Below are positions 1,176 to 31,325 of a stretch of 34,618 bases of DNA, in pieces. The position numbers and the translations under genes are program-made. The stretch comes from a virus, in IMG/VR virus record IMGVR_UViG_3300042485_000754, positions 1-34,618 of that record, one strand, 5' to 3'. The first letter of the stretch is position 1, and every line of letters starts with the position of its first letter. Below the pieces are notes generated by a model. It saw only the letters and a list, made by a program, of their open reading frames with translations, did not search any database and was not told where the DNA came from.

Positions 1176-1769
1176 TTATTCGCCACAACAACGATTTACG
1201 TTTCCTTGATACATTTCTTCAAAGGTTTTGCCTTTGCAACAATCGTAATCCCCCAACCATATTGTGGTTGTGTAGGCATCATTATCCGGAACAATGGTAT
1301 CAACTCCAGTACCAGGATTGATGTATTCGGGGAACTTAGCACTTGCTTGGGATTCTTGTTTGAGGTATTTAATTAACCTTTGCTTGTAAAACTCTGCTCT
1401 TGCTCCGTATCTATTTGCTACATCTGCCAAATCCGATGCACTCGGTTCGGTTTGGTTATCACCAGTTTTCCTAATTACTCCCTTGTTATAGAATTGATAT
1501 GACAATGCCATTGGCAACTCACTCATAACGTAGTAAACTAAACAAGGTGTTATGTAAGTGTTTAACAAGGTTTCCTCATCACAGTTCAAATCTCCGCACT
1601 CAATCCCATTTTGCAACTTCTCGTAAAGTGCCGTTCCCAATGCAGGGAGGATATAAGCATCCTGTGCATAAAGGATATCGGGAAAGACCAATTTAGGGTC
1701 AACGTTTACGTGTAAACCTGTTCTGTCCTTTATCGTATCTACCGAAATAAAAAGTATATTTCTGCTCAT
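1176..1769 (-). CDS. Head-tail connector-like protein (DUF6712-like)
   Basis: 197 residues starting MSRNILFISVDTIKDRTGLHVNVD. The helical core (LVFPDILYAQDAYILPALGTALYEKLQ) and the acidic, helical middle resemble the DUF6712-type proteins that follow the portal gene in Bacteroidota phages and are thought to be head-tail adaptors. Its start codon shares one base with the portal gene end at 1769, so the two are probably translationally coupled. The C-terminus is Cys-rich (DYDCCKGK and NRCCGE), perhaps for disulphide or metal stabilisation. The connector role is inferred from order and fold-like pattern. Confidence 0.6.
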   Translation of the reverse strand: MSRNILFISVDTIKDRTGLHVNVDPKLVFPDILYAQDAYILPALGTALYEKLQNGIECGDLNCDEETLLNTYITPCLVYYVMSELPMALSYQFYNKGVIRKTGDNQTEPSASDLADVANRYGARAEFYKQRLIKYLKQESQASAKFPEYINPGTGVDTIVPDNDAYTTTIWLGDYDCCKGKTFEEMYQGNVNRCCGE

Positions 1770-3757
1770 TATTTTTTCTTTTTAACTACTACATTCCTTC
1801 TCCATTCGTGTCTGCAACTTGGTGAATCTCCCCACCAACCACCGCCTCGGTCAAACACCGAGTAACCAAGTCTTGCACTTAGCATCTCAATTCCTTTCCT
1901 TGTCCAAAACTTATCCTCCGCAATCAACTTCCTACAAAATTGGCGAGAAGGATGGGCAGCGGTATCTCTTTCGCTACTTGGTACAATCGGTTTCCACTCG
2001 TAAGAATATCTAACCTCAAAGGTTGTAACTTCCATATCATCAACTAACTTGCTTAATGGTTTAGTCAACTTCCTTTCCTCTATCTTTGGGTCATAATTAA
2101 TCGCACCCGATTCAACCAAGTAACTTAACCGACCTTGTACAACATCTCTGCTTTTCTTAGTTGCCCCCGCAATGTCATCAATGCTTATTTTAGGGTCTTT
2201 ATCAATCAAGGCAAGGATTTGCTTGTCTAATGCTTTATCTATCAAGGAATCCTCTGCAAATGCTTCTCTCGCACTAAATACCGCCTTTGATTGTATGATG
2301 TTATAATTCTCTTTCGGTTCACCTACCTCTCTAAACATTCCAATCACAGTGTCCTCATCAAGTGCCGAAAATTGAAAGTCATCAGTAGTCGGGTCATCAT
2401 CTATGCCGAGCATTGCATTAATATCTGAATCGGTCATTCCAAGACCTGCTTTGAGCATAGTAGTCGCAATCTCTTTGGTAATCTTACCTTGTGAGAATTG
2501 GCGAATAACCCTCATAACTTGCTGATATTGTCTACCGCTAAGGTTCTTTAAGTTATCGTTTACCTCCGATTGTACTTGGTCTATTGTCGGTTGGTTTGTT
2601 ACATTTGGTTGATATTTAGTTAAATCAATACCTGCCTTTTCCAATAACCACTCTTTAGGTGCAATCTGCAATAAAGCTGCTTCGCTTAACTCAAACCCGA
2701 TAGGTTCAACCGGGATAATTGTAATTTCCGAAGTCGCACCCCTCAACCTTGCAAGTTGATTGAATACCGCTTCAATGAATTGTTGTTTATCGTTTACATA
2801 AGTGTTCTTAAATATCTCATAAGAATCCCTTATCTGTGTTCTTGAACCAAGTTGCCCAGGTTCGGCAATACCGAAAAGACTTGGCGAGGTGATTTGATGA
2901 CCTGCAAACAAATTGTTTTGTATAATCAAGTCAACCCTTGTGAAGTCCTCTTTTGTGATATCACTTGCTCCGAGGTCCTCAATGATTGGTTTTCTTGCAG
3001 GGTCAGTAGTAAATGATAAGATAAATTTCTTACCATCGCTACCGCTAAACCTATCCGTAAATCTTCTTTCAATGTTCCTCTTCTCATCAGGAGAAGGTTC
3101 GCCATTGGGAAGGGTAATAAGTTTGGATGCACTGAATCCGGTTTGAGCATTCCCCAAAACGTGTCTGCTGACTTCAATATCTGATTCAATATAGTTCAAT
3201 GCACCCATGTAACCAGGCAAAGCGTAAGTATCTAAACCCGGTCTATATTCTTTTACATATAGTATCTGCTTTCCTTGCCTGACATTCGTATTGAATGCCA
3301 TCATTGCAAATGCCTCATCCTTTCTTTCTGCCCAGTCTTTTTTATACCAAAACTGGGTATTGTCAGCATTTGACCTTATTTTGGTGTAGTCAATATGCAA
3401 AACATCAACCAACTTGCCACCCGTTAAGGACCAAATTACTTCAAGATATGCACCTCCAAAGATTTCAATGTCAATAGATACCTTCCTTGTCAAATCATTT
3501 AAAGATTCAAACTGATTAGGTTGTGCGATGAACTGCATTGCAATCGGGTCTGCCTCATCCGCTTTCCATCCGTTTCCGATAATGTAATTGACCTTGCCTT
3601 TAACGATTGCGTTATGTTTGGCACTCTTATTGTAAAGCGAAAGCAAATACCCTGGGTAATCATTCCTTTCTCCGAACTCAATATACCCCTTGCCCCTCTT
3701 TTCTCTATATTCAGGTTGCCTTGCTTCTTGAAAATTAAGTATTACTAAATCATTCAT
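1769..3757 (-). CDS. Portal protein with a C-terminal extension
   Basis: 662 residues. The first ~400 residues look like an HK97-type portal: NDYPGYLLSLYNKSAKHNAI near the N-terminus, the clip/wing segment with 'IDIEIFGGAYLEV', then 'NNLFAGHQITSPSLFGI' and a long helical stem. The portal forms the dodecameric ring through which DNA is packaged and ejected. After about residue 500 there is extra sequence: a winged-helix-like stretch (ISIDDIAGATKKSRDVVQ) and a Cys/His-containing end (SRQFCRKL, then GGGWWGDSPSCRHEW). It starts with an ATGA overlap with the gene at 3754-4131. The portal call is firm at family level; the extension's function is unknown. Confidence 0.85.
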   Translation of the reverse strand: MNDLVILNFQEARQPEYREKRGKGYIEFGERNDYPGYLLSLYNKSAKHNAIVKGKVNYIIGNGWKADEADPIAMQFIAQPNQFESLNDLTRKVSIDIEIFGGAYLEVIWSLTGGKLVDVLHIDYTKIRSNADNTQFWYKKDWAERKDEAFAMMAFNTNVRQGKQILYVKEYRPGLDTYALPGYMGALNYIESDIEVSRHVLGNAQTGFSASKLITLPNGEPSPDEKRNIERRFTDRFSGSDGKKFILSFTTDPARKPIIEDLGASDITKEDFTRVDLIIQNNLFAGHQITSPSLFGIAEPGQLGSRTQIRDSYEIFKNTYVNDKQQFIEAVFNQLARLRGATSEITIIPVEPIGFELSEAALLQIAPKEWLLEKAGIDLTKYQPNVTNQPTIDQVQSEVNDNLKNLSGRQYQQVMRVIRQFSQGKITKEIATTMLKAGLGMTDSDINAMLGIDDDPTTDDFQFSALDEDTVIGMFREVGEPKENYNIIQSKAVFSAREAFAEDSLIDKALDKQILALIDKDPKISIDDIAGATKKSRDVVQGRLSYLVESGAINYDPKIEERKLTKPLSKLVDDMEVTTFEVRYSYEWKPIVPSSERDTAAHPSRQFCRKLIAEDKFWTRKGIEMLSARLGYSVFDRGGGWWGDSPSCRHEWRRNVVVKKKK

Positions 3758-15377: not shown

Positions 15378-16049
15378 TTACTTCAATTTAGTAAGTACCC
15401 TATTGTGTACTAAGTTTAGTTCATGCTTCCATAATTCGTTCTGTCCTTCTCTTGGTAGGAACTGGTCCACTGCGTTTGATACCGATTGAATCCCTGCGAA
15501 GTAACCCCAAGGCATTGGGATTGCGTTATTGCAGTCATCAATGACAAGTGTACCTCCAACCTTTAGGATTGGGATGTAGTTCTTCAGGTCTGCCATTACT
15601 ACCTCGTAAGTATGTCCTCCATCAATGTAAAGAACATCGGGAGGATTCTTTGAGGCAAGGTTTACCGCTACGGGATTAGTTGAATCAAGTTTGATTAGTT
15701 CATAGTCATCCGCAATCTTAAAGGTGTGGTGTAGTTTTTTAATGTCTGCTTCGTAGTCAGATTCCCAATGTCCATCGGATGTGTCAAGAGGTGTGATTCC
15801 GATTCGCCTAACCTTTTTGCCGTGTCGGTCTGCCAGTAACTTAACCAATCCAAGAATCTGTCCCCTAAACACCCCAATCTCTATAAAGGTAAACTCTTGG
15901 GGCATCCTTGCAACAATATCATTCCACATCCAAATAAAACACCTCTCCCCAAATCCGAATGCGTTTGCTTCTATCCAGTCCCGATATGCTTTAAGTTCTT
16001 GGTCAGCGTTTACCTTGTCGGTATATTCCTTAACTATCCATTCCATCAT
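15378..16049 (-). CDS. SAM-dependent methyltransferase (Methyltransf_24-like)
   Basis: 223 residues. Motif I is 'FIEIGVFRGQ' (55-64), followed by 'RIGITPLDTS' (82-91), 'PDVLYIDGGHTYEVVMADLK' (137-156) and 'GGTLVIDDCN' (165-174). This is the Rossmann arrangement of the Methyltransf_24/cephalosporin hydroxylase-like class; the DGGHTYE loop is typical of sugar or small-molecule O-methyltransferases in glycan clusters. It is linked by 4-base overlap to the glycosyltransferase gene upstream and lies beside two more, so O-methylation of a phage-attached glycan is the most natural reading. The substrate is not known. Confidence 0.7.
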   Translation of the reverse strand: MMEWIVKEYTDKVNADQELKAYRDWIEANAFGFGERCFIWMWNDIVARMPQEFTFIEIGVFRGQILGLVKLLADRHGKKVRRIGITPLDTSDGHWESDYEADIKKLHHTFKIADDYELIKLDSTNPVAVNLASKNPPDVLYIDGGHTYEVVMADLKNYIPILKVGGTLVIDDCNNAIPMPWGYFAGIQSVSNAVDQFLPREGQNELWKHELNLVHNRVLTKLK

Positions 16050-16666
16050 AATAAGTAAAATTTGCTCATGTCAGTCTTGCCATTCCCGTGAATGAACATA
16101 GGGAAGGTATGTGTTTTATTGTTGTACAATCTATTGTAAGTTAGGGTAAAGTCACCTTCCACCTCAAACGCAACCGATTGGAAGATGTTACAATAATCAA
16201 GTCCTATCTTGTCGGGCATTGCAAGGAAGCGGTCCGTGTACCAACGCTGGTCGTCATCCTCAAACCTTGGAGGATTCGTGTTGTAGATTTCAAGAAAGTC
16301 CTTTTTGTTTCCGTAAATCTGCCCACTATTTAGGAACTTCCATTCGTGATTAACCACTGGGAACATTCCCATCTTATGCGTATCGGGATAACATCCTTTC
16401 TCACTTGATACAATCATAGGGTAGTCCTTCTTTTTAAACTTAAACTCTTGAGGACTTGCGATGCAGTAATTGTCATAGGCATCAAGGTAAATGAAGTCAT
16501 CTATATCGGTTGAGCATAGATACTCATAAAGTCCGATTATCTTAGTGCCAAACCCTTTCCACTCCTTTACTATTGGATGATATGCCCACCCGTGTTGTTT
16601 TAAGGATTGTTCCAACTTCAACCAACCTGCGTGATTCGGATTATCAAGTGATACGATTACTTTCAT
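16046..16666 (-). CDS. Glycosyltransferase with procollagen (PLOD/GLT25D)-type GT fold
   Basis: 206 residues. The order of motifs matches the glycosyltransferase domain of procollagen galactosyl/glucosyltransferases: 'DFIYLDAYDNY' (57-67; D62 and D65 as metal-binding DxxD), 'MIVSSEKGCYPD' (84-95), 'FLNSGQIYGN' (111-120), 'DDDQRWYTDRFL' (137-148), 'GLDYCNIFQS' (155-164) and 'FIHGNGK' (191-197). Such enzymes transfer Gal or Glc to hydroxylysine or to other glycans. The gene is coupled on both sides by ATGA-type overlaps. The acceptor is unknown; the collagen-like GPQGPAG stretch in the fibre gene at 1-298 is one speculative candidate. Confidence 0.75.
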   Translation of the reverse strand: MKVIVSLDNPNHAGWLKLEQSLKQHGWAYHPIVKEWKGFGTKIIGLYEYLCSTDIDDFIYLDAYDNYCIASPQEFKFKKKDYPMIVSSEKGCYPDTHKMGMFPVVNHEWKFLNSGQIYGNKKDFLEIYNTNPPRFEDDDQRWYTDRFLAMPDKIGLDYCNIFQSVAFEVEGDFTLTYNRLYNNKTHTFPMFIHGNGKTDMSKFYLL

Positions 16667-17445
16667 AGGAAAGGATTGTAGTAGATTGGTCTTGTTCCGT
16701 GATAGTATTCATGAGTCATTTTTATGACTTCTTGGGTTACTTCTGCACTATGTTTCTCCTTCCACGTTTGGTATTCCGTTTCCCCTTTGTCTATGTGTTC
16801 AATCTCAATGTGAGGTAAAAACACATTCCACATACCTGCAACTGTTGACCTATGAGATGCAAGAACATCATCGTAACCATAGAGGTTAGGTTGGCAAAGA
16901 TACCCTATTTTGTCAAGCAAAGCGGATGAGTACATCTGACAAGTCCCTATAATGTGATGGCACTTCTCAACTATTATCCAACGCTGACCTGCAAGGTGTG
17001 GTAGCATAATCAACTCGCTTCTCCAATCAGGTAATGCGTGATTCGGTTCTTCCCAACAATCTTTTCTCTTTAGACCTACTATTCCAATCCTTGCCTCACG
17101 TTCTATTGCTTCAACCATTTCTTTAACCCAATCAACATTGTCTATAATTACATCGTTATCCATCTTGATACAATGCTGACCAGGTTTACGATGCTTCCAA
17201 GCAAGATTAACCGCCTCTGCCGTTCCAATGTTCTCATCATTAGTTATGATATTTACAAAACCATCTGCTGCATATTCTTTTATGATTTCCTTTGTTGCTT
17301 GGCAAGAGTTATTATCTATAATCCAAAACTCATGGTCATAAAAGATATGCTGAAAATGTAATTCATTTAAGACCTTTTCGGTTAGTTCTGACCTTTTGTT
17401 CTCTTCGGTGTCATGCACCGCCATTGCGATAAGGACTTTATCCAT
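16663..17445 (-). CDS. Family 2 (GT-A) glycosyltransferase
   Basis: 260 residues from the ATG at 17445 (MDKVLIAMAVHDTEENKRSE); a longer frame would run into the preceding small gene. GT2 landmarks are 'FWIIDNNS' (40-47), 'DENIGTAEAVNLAWKH' (70-85), the DxD motif 'KMDNDVII' (94-101), and 'GYDDVLASHR' near the expected acceptor/base region. GT-A enzymes use nucleotide sugars and a divalent metal. It overlaps its upstream neighbour by 8 nt and its downstream one by 4 nt, forming one operon with the other glycan genes. The substrate is unknown. Confidence 0.8.
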   Translation of the reverse strand: MDKVLIAMAVHDTEENKRSELTEKVLNELHFQHIFYDHEFWIIDNNSCQATKEIIKEYAADGFVNIITNDENIGTAEAVNLAWKHRKPGQHCIKMDNDVIIDNVDWVKEMVEAIEREARIGIVGLKRKDCWEEPNHALPDWRSELIMLPHLAGQRWIIVEKCHHIIGTCQMYSSALLDKIGYLCQPNLYGYDDVLASHRSTVAGMWNVFLPHIEIEHIDKGETEYQTWKEKHSAEVTQEVIKMTHEYYHGTRPIYYNPFL

Positions 17446-17605
17446 TCCGTTTGGTTTTTGTGTTTTTTTCTTTTGGTTTCTTGTAAGAATATTTACCCCC
17501 TGCAAGTATTGCGGTCCATACCTCAGTCGCCTTCTCTTTTGTATCGTAGATGCATTGACCCGAACCGATGCGATACTTTCCGTTACTGCACTTAATTACT
17601 GGCAT
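17438..17605 (-). CDS. Small conserved phage protein (55 aa)
   Basis: ATG at 17605, TAA at 17438-17440: MPVIKCSNGKYRIGSGQCIY, then DTKEKATEVWTAILAGGKYS and a Lys-rich tail. The pattern 'KC.NGKYRIGSG.C.YDTKEKA' is recurrent in tailed phages, where it occurs as a small separate protein or as the end of capsid-region proteins. The two Cys, Gly-rich turn and one helix suggest a small zinc- or disulphide-stabilised fold. It overlaps the GT4 gene by 10 nt upstream and the GT2 gene by 8 nt downstream, filling the gap exactly. Its function is unknown. Confidence 0.75.
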   Translation of the reverse strand: MPVIKCSNGKYRIGSGQCIYDTKEKATEVWTAILAGGKYSYKKPKEKNTKTKRNG

Positions 17606-18603
17606 AATGCTTCAAATATTTGTGAACGTATTTTGTTTACCTTGATAAGATTGAAGTTCTCCCTACACCATTCCCCATTAGCAATCCCCATCTCTTGCCT
17701 ATAAATAGCATCTTTGACAACTTTTTTAATATTTGTGAACCAATCGGATTGATTGTTTATAGGGATGATATGCTTACATTCGGAATAAGGTTTGACATTG
17801 GAACAGATGACAGGTGCATTCTTTGTCGCTGCCTCCAATACTTTTAGGTTAGACTTCATTGAGTTGAACTTTGAATCTACTAAAGGAATTAAACAAGCAT
17901 CCGCTTCATTGTAAAAGTTCATGTACTCATCAACCGGTAACGCTGCCCGTATGTAACCATCAACATTGAATCCGCATAAGTAGTCGTTAATCATTCTGCC
18001 CCATACGTTTGCCACGTTTTTGTCCTCGCTATATCCGCAAAGGATAAAACTTGACTTGCTCTTCACCATTGCATCTCCTGCCACCCTTTTCATTGGGTTT
18101 TTGAGGATTGCGATATCCTTTTCGTGTGTGATTGAACCTGCGTAAACAAATCGGACCTTATCCGATTCAGTCTTAACATCTGTGAACTGGTCCTCACCAT
18201 AAGGCAAAGCGTTTGGAATTACTATCCAATTCGGATTGAGTTCATCAATTTGAACCGCTAAATCATTGTTTGAGCAAGTTACAATATCTGCGACCTTGAT
18301 ATGGTCAATGACTTTCTGAGTTGGATATTTGCCGTAAAGGATATGCCAAGCATCTAAGTTCCAATAATCGTCAACATCAACCACCAACTTGAATCCATAC
18401 TTCTCCCTTAATCTAACAACCTCATCAACCTCCATACCTGCTATGTACCTATTGATAAAAAGTATGTCATACCCTTTTTCAAGTTCTTCTTCGGTAAGTA
18501 CATCGGTCATCATTGCATAATCCTTTGGCAAGTAGATTAACGGATTAAACAACCTATGAAATGATACCCCCGAATTACGCTGACCAACTGTGATTATTCT
18601 CAT
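17596..18603 (-). CDS. Family 4-like (GT-B) glycosyltransferase
   Basis: 335 residues with two Rossmann-like halves. The N-terminal half has 'ITVGQRNSGVSFHRLFNPL' and 'KLVVDVDDYWNLD' (72-84). The C-terminal half has 'VRFVYAGSITHEKDI' (150-164) and the nucleotide-sugar signature 'LIPLVDSKFNSMKSNLKVLE' (238-257), followed by 'APVICSNVKPY'. The KSNLKxxE segment corresponds to the conserved phosphate/base-binding stretch of GT4 enzymes. It is the first of three glycosyltransferases and is coupled by 4-base overlap to the small gene at 18600. Acceptor and sugar are unknown. Confidence 0.8.
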   Translation of the reverse strand: MRIITVGQRNSGVSFHRLFNPLIYLPKDYAMMTDVLTEEELEKGYDILFINRYIAGMEVDEVVRLREKYGFKLVVDVDDYWNLDAWHILYGKYPTQKVIDHIKVADIVTCSNNDLAVQIDELNPNWIVIPNALPYGEDQFTDVKTESDKVRFVYAGSITHEKDIAILKNPMKRVAGDAMVKSKSSFILCGYSEDKNVANVWGRMINDYLCGFNVDGYIRAALPVDEYMNFYNEADACLIPLVDSKFNSMKSNLKVLEAATKNAPVICSNVKPYSECKHIIPINNQSDWFTNIKKVVKDAIYRQEMGIANGEWCRENFNLIKVNKIRSQIFEALCQ

Positions 18604-28661: not shown

Positions 28662-28809
28662 GTACTGTAAAGAAACAAAAAGTAGAAATGATTTCCCTGT
28701 GAACATTATGATGAATGATCACAGAGAAAATAAATGTAAAAAATGTAGATCAAATTATGATAAAATAAAAAGAGAAAAGCGTAAGTCTTCTGATATAAAA
28801 CACTTTTAA
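28630..28809 (+). CDS. Small zinc-finger protein (59 aa)
   Basis: ATG at 28630, TAA at 28807-28809. C10-x2-C13 and C36-x2-C39 (KKCKYCKETKSRNDF and ENKCKKCRSNYDKIK) form a four-Cys zinc site, with the 'D/F...MNDHRE' spacer of the knuckle that precedes HNH nuclease domains. No HNH core follows, so it is a lone knuckle, probably DNA/RNA-binding. The end is Lys/Arg-rich. Its stop overlaps the endolysin stop on the other strand (28806-28809). Confidence 0.7.
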   Translation: MSNTIQLKKCKYCKETKSRNDFPVNIMMNDHRENKCKKCRSNYDKIKREKRKSSDIKHF

Positions 28810-29270
28810 TAATTACTATATACCGTTTTACCATTTGACCTGGTTGCCCTTAGTATTTGCTTCCTTTGCTTACCAGTTGATTTATAAGAAACGTGAACCC
28901 AATCAGGATTCTTGGCATCTCCGAACTCGTAGATAAGTTGGTCAAAGTATAAGTTTTCCTTGATGTAATCAAAAACCATCCTATTTGTTACTCCGTTTGG
29001 TGTACCATCCATATCTATATCAATCGCTTCTCCCTGGCAATGTTGTGAGGTCAATGAACCACCAATGGCAGCGTTTAATTCCTTGCTTCTATATCCCGAT
29101 GAGATAATAATTGGGCATCTAAAATGATTCCTTATTGGTTCAAATATCTTCTCCGCTAATAACTTAAAATTGGCAATGTGTGCCTCGGTTGGCATATTGC
29201 TTATCCCTTTACGCTTTGCTGATTCGCTACGGGTTACTTCTGACAAATCAAGGTGTTCTGATAATTTCAT
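28806..29270 (-). CDS. Endolysin, M15A-type D-Ala-D-Ala peptidase
   Basis: 154 residues. The M15A zinc site is H77 and D84 in 'SQHCQGEAIDID' and H126 in 'PDWVHVS'; the upstream 'IIISSGYRSKELNAAIGG' (55-71) is also family-typical. It should cleave peptidoglycan cross-links and has no signal peptide, so export needs a holin. It is the last minus-strand gene of the lysis cassette, overlaps the spanin-like gene by 4 bases, and converges with the plus-strand cluster with shared stop bases and no terminator between. Confidence 0.88.
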   Translation of the reverse strand: MKLSEHLDLSEVTRSESAKRKGISNMPTEAHIANFKLLAEKIFEPIRNHFRCPIIISSGYRSKELNAAIGGSLTSQHCQGEAIDIDMDGTPNGVTNRMVFDYIKENLYFDQLIYEFGDAKNPDWVHVSYKSTGKQRKQILRATRSNGKTVYSNY

Positions 29271-29731
29271 ATTTTAGATTTTATATACAATGCACCGATT
29301 ATCATTGCAACGATTGCAAACAACCAAATTTGCCTTTTCTTTGCCTTTGCCTTCCATTCTATCACCTCACCTCCTAAACGTGCTGAATCTGCCTGTAATA
29401 ACCTCACACGAGCATTGTCAACAATGAATGACTTGATTGTATCGTGAATGGTGATTGAGTTGGTTATTTCTCTTGTTTTCCACTTGGTGATGTAGGTTGT
29501 ATCATTTAGGACATAGGTATCTGTAAGTGTATCAATCCTCACCAATGTATCAACCTCAACCAAAGTATCAGACTTGACAACAAAAGTTGTATCATTTGCA
29601 CACCATCCTCCCTTAACCACAACCTTTGCGACTTCTTCAAGTTTCTCTTGGTCACGAAGTACCTGTTTAACTGGGTTGCAGGCAATAAATAAAATTAGTA
29701 ATAGTAGGTATCTCATATTATTTTTTTTCAT
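29267..29731 (-). CDS. Probable unimolecular spanin (lipoprotein with C-terminal TM)
   Basis: 154 residues from the ATG at 29731 (MKKNNMRYLLLLILFIACNP); an alternative is 29716. The N-terminus is a lipoprotein signal with lipobox FIAC, giving Cys18 after processing. The middle is beta-rich with repeated Asp-Thr strings (SDTLVEVDTLVRIDTLTDTY). The C-terminus has one membrane helix (~134-149, IWLFAIVAMIIGALYI) with basic flanks. An outer-membrane lipid anchor plus an inner-membrane helix is the topology of u-spanins such as T1 gp11, which fuse the two membranes in the last lysis step. Neighbouring endolysin and membrane proteins support it. The call is from topology, not similarity. Confidence 0.65.
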   Translation of the reverse strand: MKKNNMRYLLLLILFIACNPVKQVLRDQEKLEEVAKVVVKGGWCANDTTFVVKSDTLVEVDTLVRIDTLTDTYVLNDTTYITKWKTREITNSITIHDTIKSFIVDNARVRLLQADSARLGGEVIEWKAKAKKRQIWLFAIVAMIIGALYIKSKI

Positions 29732-30461
29732 CTTGTGTTGCATACTTAATACCCATAATTGTCCCCACTATTGAGAAGGCATTTGTAAGTAATACGCTGA
29801 ACATATTTGACCAGGTTGACCCGATTATTTGCGTGTCCTTGTTGGATAGTATTGCGAAGGAGTACATAATTGTAGTGATAAACCCAACGCTTATAATAAC
29901 CGCTAAAGCACACTTGACAATCGTTTTAATTAATTCGTTTTGACTTTTCTTTAGGGTTGCATCCAAGTCCTCCAACGCAGCGTTTTTCTCAATCTCTATT
30001 GCTTCCCTTAATTTGTTTGTATTATCCAATTCCTTTTGTAAGTTCTTGGATAGTTCATTTATTTTGTTCTTGCTAACAATCATTTCGCTGATGTCAGTCG
30101 CTATCTTCATGACCTTAGTAATAGTACCACTCTCATCAAAGATAGGATTGTAAGTTGCTTGTAAGTAGATAGGTGAACCATCTATCTTCTTTCTTTCAAA
30201 CTCACCTTCAAAAAACTTTCCACCTCTTAACGTTTCCCAAAACTTCACATACTCATCAGACTTACTATATTCGTAACTTACAAATATGCTATGATGCTTT
30301 CCTATTAACTTATCGTGTTCATCCTCACCGAATCCCATTGCTTTTAAAAAGATGGCATTTACACCAAGAATGAATCCGTTGAGGTCAAAGTAAATAATCG
30401 CATTGCTACGATTAATTGCCTCCATCCTACTTAGGAGTTCTTCTTTACTTAGGTTCTTCAT
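29718..30461 (-). CDS. PAS-domain membrane protein, candidate sensor-holin
   Basis: 247 residues. Residues ~15-125 are a complete chemoreceptor-type PAS domain: 'AIIYFDLNGFILGVNAIFLK', 'KLIGKHHSIFV', 'EYVKFWETLRGGKFFEGEF', 'YLQATYNPIFDESGTI', 'KVMKIATDIS'. A coiled coil (~130-175) follows, then two membrane helices (~181-204 and ~219-238) with a short polar loop and a charged tail (YATQDEKK). No kinase, MCP signalling or GGDEF domain is present. The two-helix end and the place between small holin-like and spanin genes suggest a holin or lysis regulator gated by a ligand, as PAS domains of this type often bind FAD or haem. The function is inferred; the domains are clear. Confidence 0.75.
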   Translation of the reverse strand: MKNLSKEELLSRMEAINRSNAIIYFDLNGFILGVNAIFLKAMGFGEDEHDKLIGKHHSIFVSYEYSKSDEYVKFWETLRGGKFFEGEFERKKIDGSPIYLQATYNPIFDESGTITKVMKIATDISEMIVSKNKINELSKNLQKELDNTNKLREAIEIEKNAALEDLDATLKKSQNELIKTIVKCALAVIISVGFITTIMYSFAILSNKDTQIIGSTWSNMFSVLLTNAFSIVGTIMGIKYATQDEKK

Positions 30462-30684
30462 CTTTTTTCTTGAAGATAGTTTGCACCGCAGAGATACCTA
30501 ATGCACCGATAGCAACCGCAGTAACGCACTCAACCAGTATTGTTGATGGTGCGATGTGTTCTTCGCTAAAACTATTCCAAAGCAAGGTTATGCAAAGGAA
30601 CAAGGTTGATAGGATACCTGCGAAGCGTTTGCTACTAAGTTTCCCATCTTCAGCGAGTAAACTCCAAATGAAATTCTTTATCAT
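30445..30684 (-). CDS. Putative holin with two membrane helices
   Basis: 79 residues: 'MIKNFIWSLLAEDGKLSSKR' then helix 1 (~21-37, FAGILSTLFLCITLLW), polar loop, helix 2 (~50-69, LVECVTAVAIGALGISAVQT) and charged tail KKKDEEPK. The 'LLAEDGKLSSKRFAG' start followed by two helices is typical of small holin-like proteins in Bacteroidota phages. It overlaps the PAS gene by 17 nt and its upstream neighbour by 4 nt. Confidence 0.65.
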   Translation of the reverse strand: MIKNFIWSLLAEDGKLSSKRFAGILSTLFLCITLLWNSFSEEHIAPSTILVECVTAVAIGALGISAVQTIFKKKDEEPK

Positions 30685-30839
30685 TTTTTTAGTTCTTTAT
30701 AAAGCCTTACTATGTTATATACTATGGTTGTTAACCCTGCAAAAATGGCAACAACCACACCGACCTCGGAGAGAGCAATATCTGCCCAAACCTTAATCAA
30801 TATGGTTGCTACACACATTCCAATAGATTTGCTATCCAT
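30681..30839 (-). CDS. Small membrane protein (52 aa), holin-like
   Basis: Start at 30839 (MDSKSIGMCVATILIKVWAD), because the ATG overlaps the preceding stop (ATGGATAG); a longer frame up to 30923 lies inside that gene. Residues ~10-24 are amphipathic and ~28-46 (LSEVGVVVAIFAGLTTIVY) form a membrane helix, ending in basic 'RLYKELKK'. A second small membrane protein beside the holin could be an antiholin or accessory holin. Confidence 0.6.
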   Translation of the reverse strand: MDSKSIGMCVATILIKVWADIALSEVGVVVAIFAGLTTIVYNIVRLYKELKK

Positions 30840-30963
30840 TCTCGTTGTTCTGCTTTTGGAGTTCTTCGCCAATTTTAGCGTTAGTCTCTTGTAGTTGCTT
30901 CTGAAGGTACTCAATTTGAGCAAGAAGGTCGTAAGCAGCTGCTTTCAGTTCAATAAGTGTCAT
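30832..30963 (-). CDS. Small coiled-coil protein (43 aa)
   Basis: ATG at 30963, TAG at 30832-30834: MTLIELKAAAYDLLAQIEYL and QKQLQETNAKIGEELQKQNN. One amphipathic helix with heptad spacing. The same 'LK...YD..AQIEYLQKQLQE' pattern recurs in Bacteroidota phages before lysis genes. It overlaps the downstream membrane gene by 8 nt. Possibly part of the tail fibre or of the lysis complex; unknown. Confidence 0.65.
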   Translation of the reverse strand: MTLIELKAAAYDLLAQIEYLQKQLQETNAKIGEELQKQNNENG

Positions 30964-30983: not shown

Positions 30984-31325
30984 TTATATATTATTTGTCA
31001 ACCAAGGCAAAGGAAGCGATACTTCTTTTGGGTTCTTTTGGTTCTCAATCTGCTTGTCAAGTGATGCATCAATTACCGCCACATCAAGTCCACTTTCCAA
31101 CCATCCCTCTACGATTGCCTGTGTGAGGTCAGCGTATGGGGTGAAATTCTCAGGTGATGGGGAAGGGATGCTTTGAGCACCATAGGTTTCAGCGAACCAA
31201 GTCTTGTCACCATCAATCTGCTCTGCTTGCCTTCTCCAATGAACGGTGAACACCACATCAGTAAGGTTGTCGGGAGTTGTTGGGTACTCGTTCATTTGCG
31301 AAATAATCCATTTGTACGTTGTCAT
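30984..31325 (-). CDS. DUF7936-like phage protein after the fibre gene
   Basis: 113 residues: 'TTYKWIISQMNEYPTTPDNL', 'VVFTVHWRRQAEQIDGDKTW', 'ETYGAQSIPSPSPENFTPYA', 'DLTQAIVEGWLESGLDVAVI' and 'QKNPKEVSLPLPW'. This motif order is characteristic of the DUF7936 type found next to tail fibre genes across several phage groups; the role may be fibre assembly or a virion component. It follows the fibre stop by 22 nt. Confidence 0.75.
   Translation of the reverse strand: MTTYKWIISQMNEYPTTPDNLTDVVFTVHWRRQAEQIDGDKTWFAETYGAQSIPSPSPENFTPYADLTQAIVEGWLESGLDVAVIDASLDKQIENQKNPKEVSLPLPWLTNNI

Follow-up and report, generated by a model that had tools for sequence, protein, structure and literature searches.

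A PAS domain joined to a near-invariant membrane hairpin in phage lysis cassettes, and its possible role in setting the time of lysis

The lysis operon and its PAS protein

The window analysed here is a virus record of 34.6 kb, whose terminase is around 32% identical to its best-ranked match among GenBank phages and whose gene content leads us to infer a host in the Bacteroidota. An operon with overlapping genes occupies positions 30923–28806 of its minus strand, and encodes, in order of transcription, a small membrane protein (80 aa; 30681–30923), a two-helix protein (79 aa; 30445–30684), a protein with a PAS domain (247 aa; 29718–30461), a lipobox protein (158 aa; 29267–29743) and a Peptidase_M15_3 endolysin (28806–29270). 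Each gene overlaps the next (by 4, 17, 26 and 4 nt in turn), which makes their joint translation probable. The endolysin was recognized both by Pfam (PF08291, E-value 1.4e-19) and by PHROG (endolysin, 1.4e-38). The 79-aa protein, whose family we designate HOL79, is a conventional holin candidate (PHROG holin, E-value 0.021) and its gene is the one sharing 17 nt with the PAS gene, while the 80-aa ORF product is, from its sequence, a further holin candidate with a weak PHROG holin match (E-value 0.4). The 158-aa protein is a probable u-spanin, judging by a layout that includes a lipobox (LLILFIAC) and a C-terminal helix; a search for a family match in Pfam and PHROG returned none. The first-pass annotation of this DNA had described these same neighbors, with a two-helix protein upstream and a spanin/endolysin pair downstream; the endolysin stands, but the spanin is a single-gene candidate and not part of a pair.

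Directly upstream of the operon, and downstream of a tail-fibre gene, lies a gene for a DUF7936 protein (30984–31325, minus strand; E-value 1.7e-26), relatives of which recur next to some of the PAS-type lysis cassettes described below. Elsewhere on the minus strand, between the DNA-packaging and replication genes, a block at 15378–18603 comprises genes for a methyltransferase (PF13578), a PLOD-type glycosyltransferase (PF25342), a GT2 enzyme and a GT1-like product, and is possibly involved in glycosylation of the virion or of the host surface. A long protein encoded at the portal position (1769–3757, minus strand) shows a C-terminal winged-helix match (HTH_24, residues 510–553).

The PAS gene starts with ATG, and its product combines a PAS domain, a coiled coil and two membrane helices, an arrangement that the first-pass annotation had proposed and that is borne out by the ORF, by Pfam and NCBIfam matches and by an AlphaFold model. 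The PAS domain spans approximately residues 20–126 (30084–30404) and matches PAS_9 (residues 22–126, E-value 2.3e-10), the PAS profile search that the annotation had called for, as well as PAS_3 (2.7e-9) and PAS (3.9e-9), all above the gathering score, and the NCBIfam model "sensory_box" (7.7e-13). A sequence search of the PDB ranked MmoS first (4.6e-8). In structural comparisons, a Foldseek search with the PAS model retrieved the FAD redox sensors NifL (1.9e-9), MmoS (2.6e-9) and Aer (5.5e-8), ranking among many LOV domains, and VIA-align gave Z-scores of 14.2 for MmoS, 13.6 for NifL and 12.9 for Aer. The significant profile matches together with the PAS fold place the domain in the PAS superfamily.

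In the AlphaFold model, of moderate quality (pLDDT 74.8, pTM 0.46), the PAS fold is followed by a long helix (residues 125–205), in which the coiled coil and the first membrane helix are continuous with each other, and by a second helix (residues 211–246); the packing of the hairpin is not readable from the model. We assign residues 127–180 (29922–30083) to a coiled-coil signaling helix, from the model and from sequence conservation, and approximately residues 181–205 (29847–29921) to transmembrane helix 1, from hydrophobicity and the modeled helix. Transmembrane helix 2 is contained in a block of residues 210–242 (29736–29834; TQIIGSTWSNMFSVLLTNAFSIVGTIMGIKYAT). Hydrophobicity and charge predict an N-in/C-in topology for this hairpin. 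The protein has no match in Pfam to the methyl-accepting signaling domain of chemoreceptors, and its C-terminus consists of the coil and the hairpin.

Binding of FAD by PAS domains is associated with a Trp on helix F-alpha plus a His and/or an Asn, with at least two of these residues conserved (PMC10468136). The window protein has Trp75 on helix F-alpha (30237–30239), predicted to be the main FAD-binding determinant, and His57 (30291–30293) as a predicted second determinant, whereas the Asn is replaced by Arg90. The Trp75 and His57 positions are invariant in all the PAS copies of the family, that is, 59 from single-PAS proteins and 53 first and 54 second copies from tandem-PAS proteins. With two of the three residues thus conserved, FAD is our best guess for the ligand, which would predict the sensing of redox or respiratory state.

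Conservation and genomic neighbors of the family

Searches of viral sequences identified 184 loci matching the whole protein and 551 matching a profile of the hairpin plus the coil; the best 80 of each were retrieved, and these sets favor close relatives. The PAS-type proteins show two architectures, with a single PAS (about 250 aa) or with PAS domains in tandem (about 370 aa), and the GKHHSIF and YNPI landmarks that the annotation had pointed out are largely invariant among them. Sequence variation was unevenly distributed. Amino acid changes affect 25–34% of the codons in the PAS domain, the coil and helix 1, whereas 131 of 132 distinct genes encode exactly the same 33 residues around helix 2, even though an average pair of genes shows synonymous differences at 48% of codons. 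Identity in spite of such synonymous divergence indicates a strong constraint at the protein level and not recent copying; likewise, hundreds of homologs with mostly synonymous changes at the C-terminus indicate that the gene is real and under selection for its product. Among GenBank phage records no match was found to the hairpin, to the kinase-type protein described below or to its regulator, and the only matches were to PAS domains in unannotated records. Hairpin patterns did not find a clear cellular host gene among 84,980 genomes, where a single match, of the kinase type, came from an uncultured bin. A PHROG of unknown function (1544) gives a weak match to the hairpin (1e-5 to 1e-3).

The neighborhoods of 84 loci with distinct proteins, 83 of them of the PAS type, were compared by calling genes, clustering the neighbors and identifying the clusters through Pfam and motifs; the classes beyond those confirmed by Pfam are our reading of the motifs. 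A lysin gene was present within four genes on the same strand in 81 of the 83 PAS-type loci, and in 32 of the 33 clusters formed at 90% identity. In the two other loci (L066 and L257) a holin candidate is situated directly upstream, and the immediate neighbor is a lysin or a holin gene in 75 of the 83. The lysins belong to four unrelated types (M15, GH19, GH24 and a YkuD-like type with an SxGC motif), so the association is with the function of lysis instead of with one conserved block of genes.

The first-pass annotation had interpreted the protein as a possible ligand- or redox-gated holin. The fusion of a sensor to the hairpin, the conserved location in lysis cassettes with unrelated endolysins and the predicted FAD-type sensing, from the Trp and the His, all agree with this proposal; its identification as the hole-forming holin is not established by our results. 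The gene lies beside an endolysin, as holin genes do, and its product has two predicted transmembrane helices, but it is 247–370 aa long and carries a sensor. No holin family of Pfam or NCBIfam matched the hairpin protein, and the match of the family to PHROG 689, annotated as holin, was poor (E-value 0.015–0.11) and confined to the coil and the first helix. A HOL79 candidate was found in 22 of 26 PAS-type records, so that another protein could form the hole; these HOL79 proteins are 13–47% identical to the copy in the window and in some phages are replaced by Phage_holin_4_1 or other proteins, and at several loci there is no recognized holin within 3 kb. We considered that the PAS protein might be the sole holin at loci that seemingly contain only this protein and a GH19 endolysin (L067, L072 and L187), and discarded it when a search of whole records found HOL79 elsewhere in four of six. 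A common origin of the hairpin and HOL79 was also rejected, as a comparison of profiles gave nothing.

Kinase–regulator cassettes with the same hairpin

The remaining locus of the neighborhood set, L242, encodes a hairpin protein without PAS, beside a YkuD-like lysin. Upstream, and overlapping, are genes for a response regulator (Response_reg, 2.2e-10) and for a kinase with two membrane helices and GAF, PAS and HATPase domains. A broader hairpin profile matched at least 553 loci, and the 80 nearest of these are nearly all of this kinase type, the product consisting of an N-terminal domain that we call LEGN, a coil and the hairpin. Genes for the kinase and the regulator precede the hairpin gene in 53 of 54 kinase-type loci with adequate flanks, and mostly the stop codon of the regulator gene touches the start of the hairpin gene. 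The H-box RHDMHSGIN is present in 85 of 85 kinases, and 66 distinct regulators keep the signature residues of REC domains and have no output domain; together with the Pfam matches to HATPase_c and Response_reg, this assigns the proteins to two-component systems. Some of the kinases bear a PAS domain of the type found in the window protein (L311 and L325).

No kinase or regulator of this type was found near any of the 83 PAS-type loci. A midpoint-rooted tree of the hairpin unites the PAS-type proteins in a single group (support 1.0). Most simply, this would mean a single exchange on the input side, of a fused PAS for a kinase–regulator pair or the reverse, with the output kept. One and the same membrane effector thus takes a one-component or a two-component sensory input, which, with the tandem-PAS version, goes beyond what the first-pass annotation described. 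It is this exchange of input, with the hairpin retained, that in our view argues most strongly for the hairpin as a signal-controlled effector.

A lysin match was present within 6 kb in 25 of the 54 kinase-type loci, a lower bound given that the search models derive from the PAS-type set, and these loci often lie among structural, nucleotide or metabolic, or unrelated genes. They are less strictly tied to lysis than the PAS type, and a wider role is conceivable. HOL79 candidates were found in 10 of 26 kinase-type records. Homologs outside lysis cassettes, which the annotation had said would speak against its proposal, are absent from the PAS type, but many relatives of the kinase type do lie in such places.

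The compact cassette of a kinase, a regulator without output and a coiled-coil protein with two helices (L242 and L258–L343; e.g., L262:5683–7573) occurs in hundreds of environmental phages and often has a gene for a 62-aa membrane protein (MKNWTSVRAVYLLMS...) upstream of the kinase. Variants of it include two different histidine kinases upstream of one regulator and hairpin gene (L259:3523–6571), and YceI-like proteins, recognized by eye, encoded in or beside the cassette (L268:4712–5236 and L262:5099–5686). A 170-aa hairpin protein in a record of 154 kb (L261:6758–7270) has no PAS, and no kinase or regulator gene nearby; it may have a third kind of input or no input. Matches of the kinase-type protein to the PADLOC models LeoBC, JetC and HEC-07 lie for the most part in the coiled coil, and we judged them to be due to chance.

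Possible role in lysis and comparison with known systems

In the usual view, a holin is a timer governed by its own accumulation; what lytic phages sense before lysis, if anything, is a long-standing question. We propose, with confidence that is about evenly balanced, that the window protein is a sensor-gated effector of the inner membrane and contributes to the timing of lysis, by triggering it or by performing it. The PAS domain would be cytoplasmic and, probably with FAD, would read the redox or respiratory state of the cell; it would dimerize, and a conformational change would pass along the continuous coiled-coil helix to the N-in/C-in hairpin. Given the right signal, the hairpin might oligomerize or leak, altering the membrane, and would then either act itself as a holin or depolarize the membrane and so trigger the adjacent conventional holin, with release of the endolysin. 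In the sister phages the hairpin would have lost its PAS, or never had one, and would be driven by the phage histidine kinase and the stand-alone response regulator, which presumably docks on the N-terminal domain of the hairpin protein. In its wider form, the proposal is that either a fused flavin PAS or a phage kinase and regulator has the near-invariant hairpin as its output, in an undescribed system that times lysis by the redox or energy state of the host through direct gating of the membrane, independently of transcription; to this we give a little less than even credence.

Other roles deserve consideration. The hairpin could be a sensor-controlled antiholin or holin partner, which would block the conventional two-helix holin until the signal from the PAS or the regulator changes, in the manner of RI-T in T4. 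The presence of a separate holin candidate in 22 of 26 PAS-type records, often overlapping the PAS gene, fits such a role, signal control of the T4 holin/antiholin is established (PMC11413866, PMC8385771) and cassettes with paired holin-like proteins are known (PMC13056207). Nevertheless, several loci have no recognized holin within 3 kb, and helix 2 is near-invariant whereas HOL79 is highly variable or replaced, a pattern unlike that of a partner fitted to a particular holin, which favors autonomous action on the membrane or a conserved target, perhaps in the host. We therefore consider an antiholin rather unlikely, but it is the foremost of the alternatives.

A conserved host target would equally suit a signaling protein working outside lysis, for example in host membrane energetics or superinfection exclusion, that sits beside late genes for the timing of its expression. 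Among the complete loci of the kinase type, roughly half have no lysin match within 6 kb and lie near structural, nucleotide or unrelated genes, which would agree with this; the PAS type argues against it, since chance placement in a late region would track the lysin less closely than in these 81 of 83 loci, where lysins of four unrelated families are usually adjacent or overlapping, and we deem it improbable. Finally, PAS domains can serve as dimerization modules and two helices arranged N-in/C-in would fit a class II holin, so the protein might be a plain holin whose acquired PAS is non-functional or purely structural, aiding dimerization. The invariance of the ligand-type residues in every copy, both tandem PAS included, and the active-looking kinase and regulator of the alternative architecture point instead to real sensing, and make this very hard to credit. 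Should the gated effector be correct, a sensor would be wired directly to a membrane effector within the lysis operon, and this in two designs that can replace each other, across hundreds of environmental phages, which would make testable the question of sensing before lysis; the kinase type would be a phage phosphorelay with a membrane protein, and not a promoter, as its output, and the family would offer synthetic biology a natural membrane module gated by redox or another signal. Phages of this family may, in short, sense when to lyse.

In a set of 5.39 million open papers (subscription papers and bioRxiv preprints lying outside this scope) we found no description of a PAS domain with a holin, of phage-encoded histidine kinases with this output or of sensors in lysis cassettes, and hence no precedent for a sensor-controlled membrane protein in a lysis cassette. 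A 46% identical PAS, over 136 columns, belongs to a BFVD entry from an uncultured Caudovirales phage (A0A6J5L941), annotated automatically as a histidine kinase and linked in none of the papers searched to lysis or to a membrane hairpin, which indicates that such kinases have been deposited without interpretation. Another BFVD match suggested gp108 of Cellulophaga phage phi19:1 as a relative from a cultured phage, and was discarded because the sequence of gp108 shows no relation to those of the hairpin proteins. This product (L419:46203–46925) is probably, from its length, the 240-aa protein behind the BFVD match with the PAS model (E-value 2.4e-5); it has a predicted membrane segment, its gene is about 1.5 kb upstream of that for a lysozyme, and it is possibly a non-homologous analog.

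The flavin PAS domains of MmoS, NifL and Aer share their fold with the window protein, are among its closest PDB matches and have in common with it the Trp on F-alpha and the His; the window protein differs in the Arg that replaces Asn and in its output, where a phage membrane hairpin takes the place of a kinase, of NifA binding or of a chemoreceptor. The chemoreceptors BdlA and McpS have tandem PAS domains of the GKHHxxF...YNPI type, a likeness to the phage proteins that for BdlA is one of motif type. The PAS domains of BdlA and McpS are predicted to bind FAD (PMC8694187); the phage proteins carry the hairpin in place of a methyl-accepting domain. With class II holins (two helices, N-in/C-in) the window protein shares the predicted topology and the location in the cassette, and it differs from them in its long cytoplasmic sensor and coiled coil, in its near-invariant helix 2 and in being accompanied by a separate holin candidate. 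In the lysis inhibition of T4, a membrane protein likewise relays a signal that adjusts when lysis occurs (PMC11413866). RI, however, senses in the periplasm and blocks T, whereas this family would use a cytoplasmic PAS or a kinase–regulator pair. VqmA of vibriophage VP882 is also a PAS-containing protein. It is likewise a phage-encoded sensor that couples lysis to a host signal (PMC7790227), but as a transcription factor that acts through Qtip, whereas the sensor of the window sits on a membrane protein encoded within the lysis operon.
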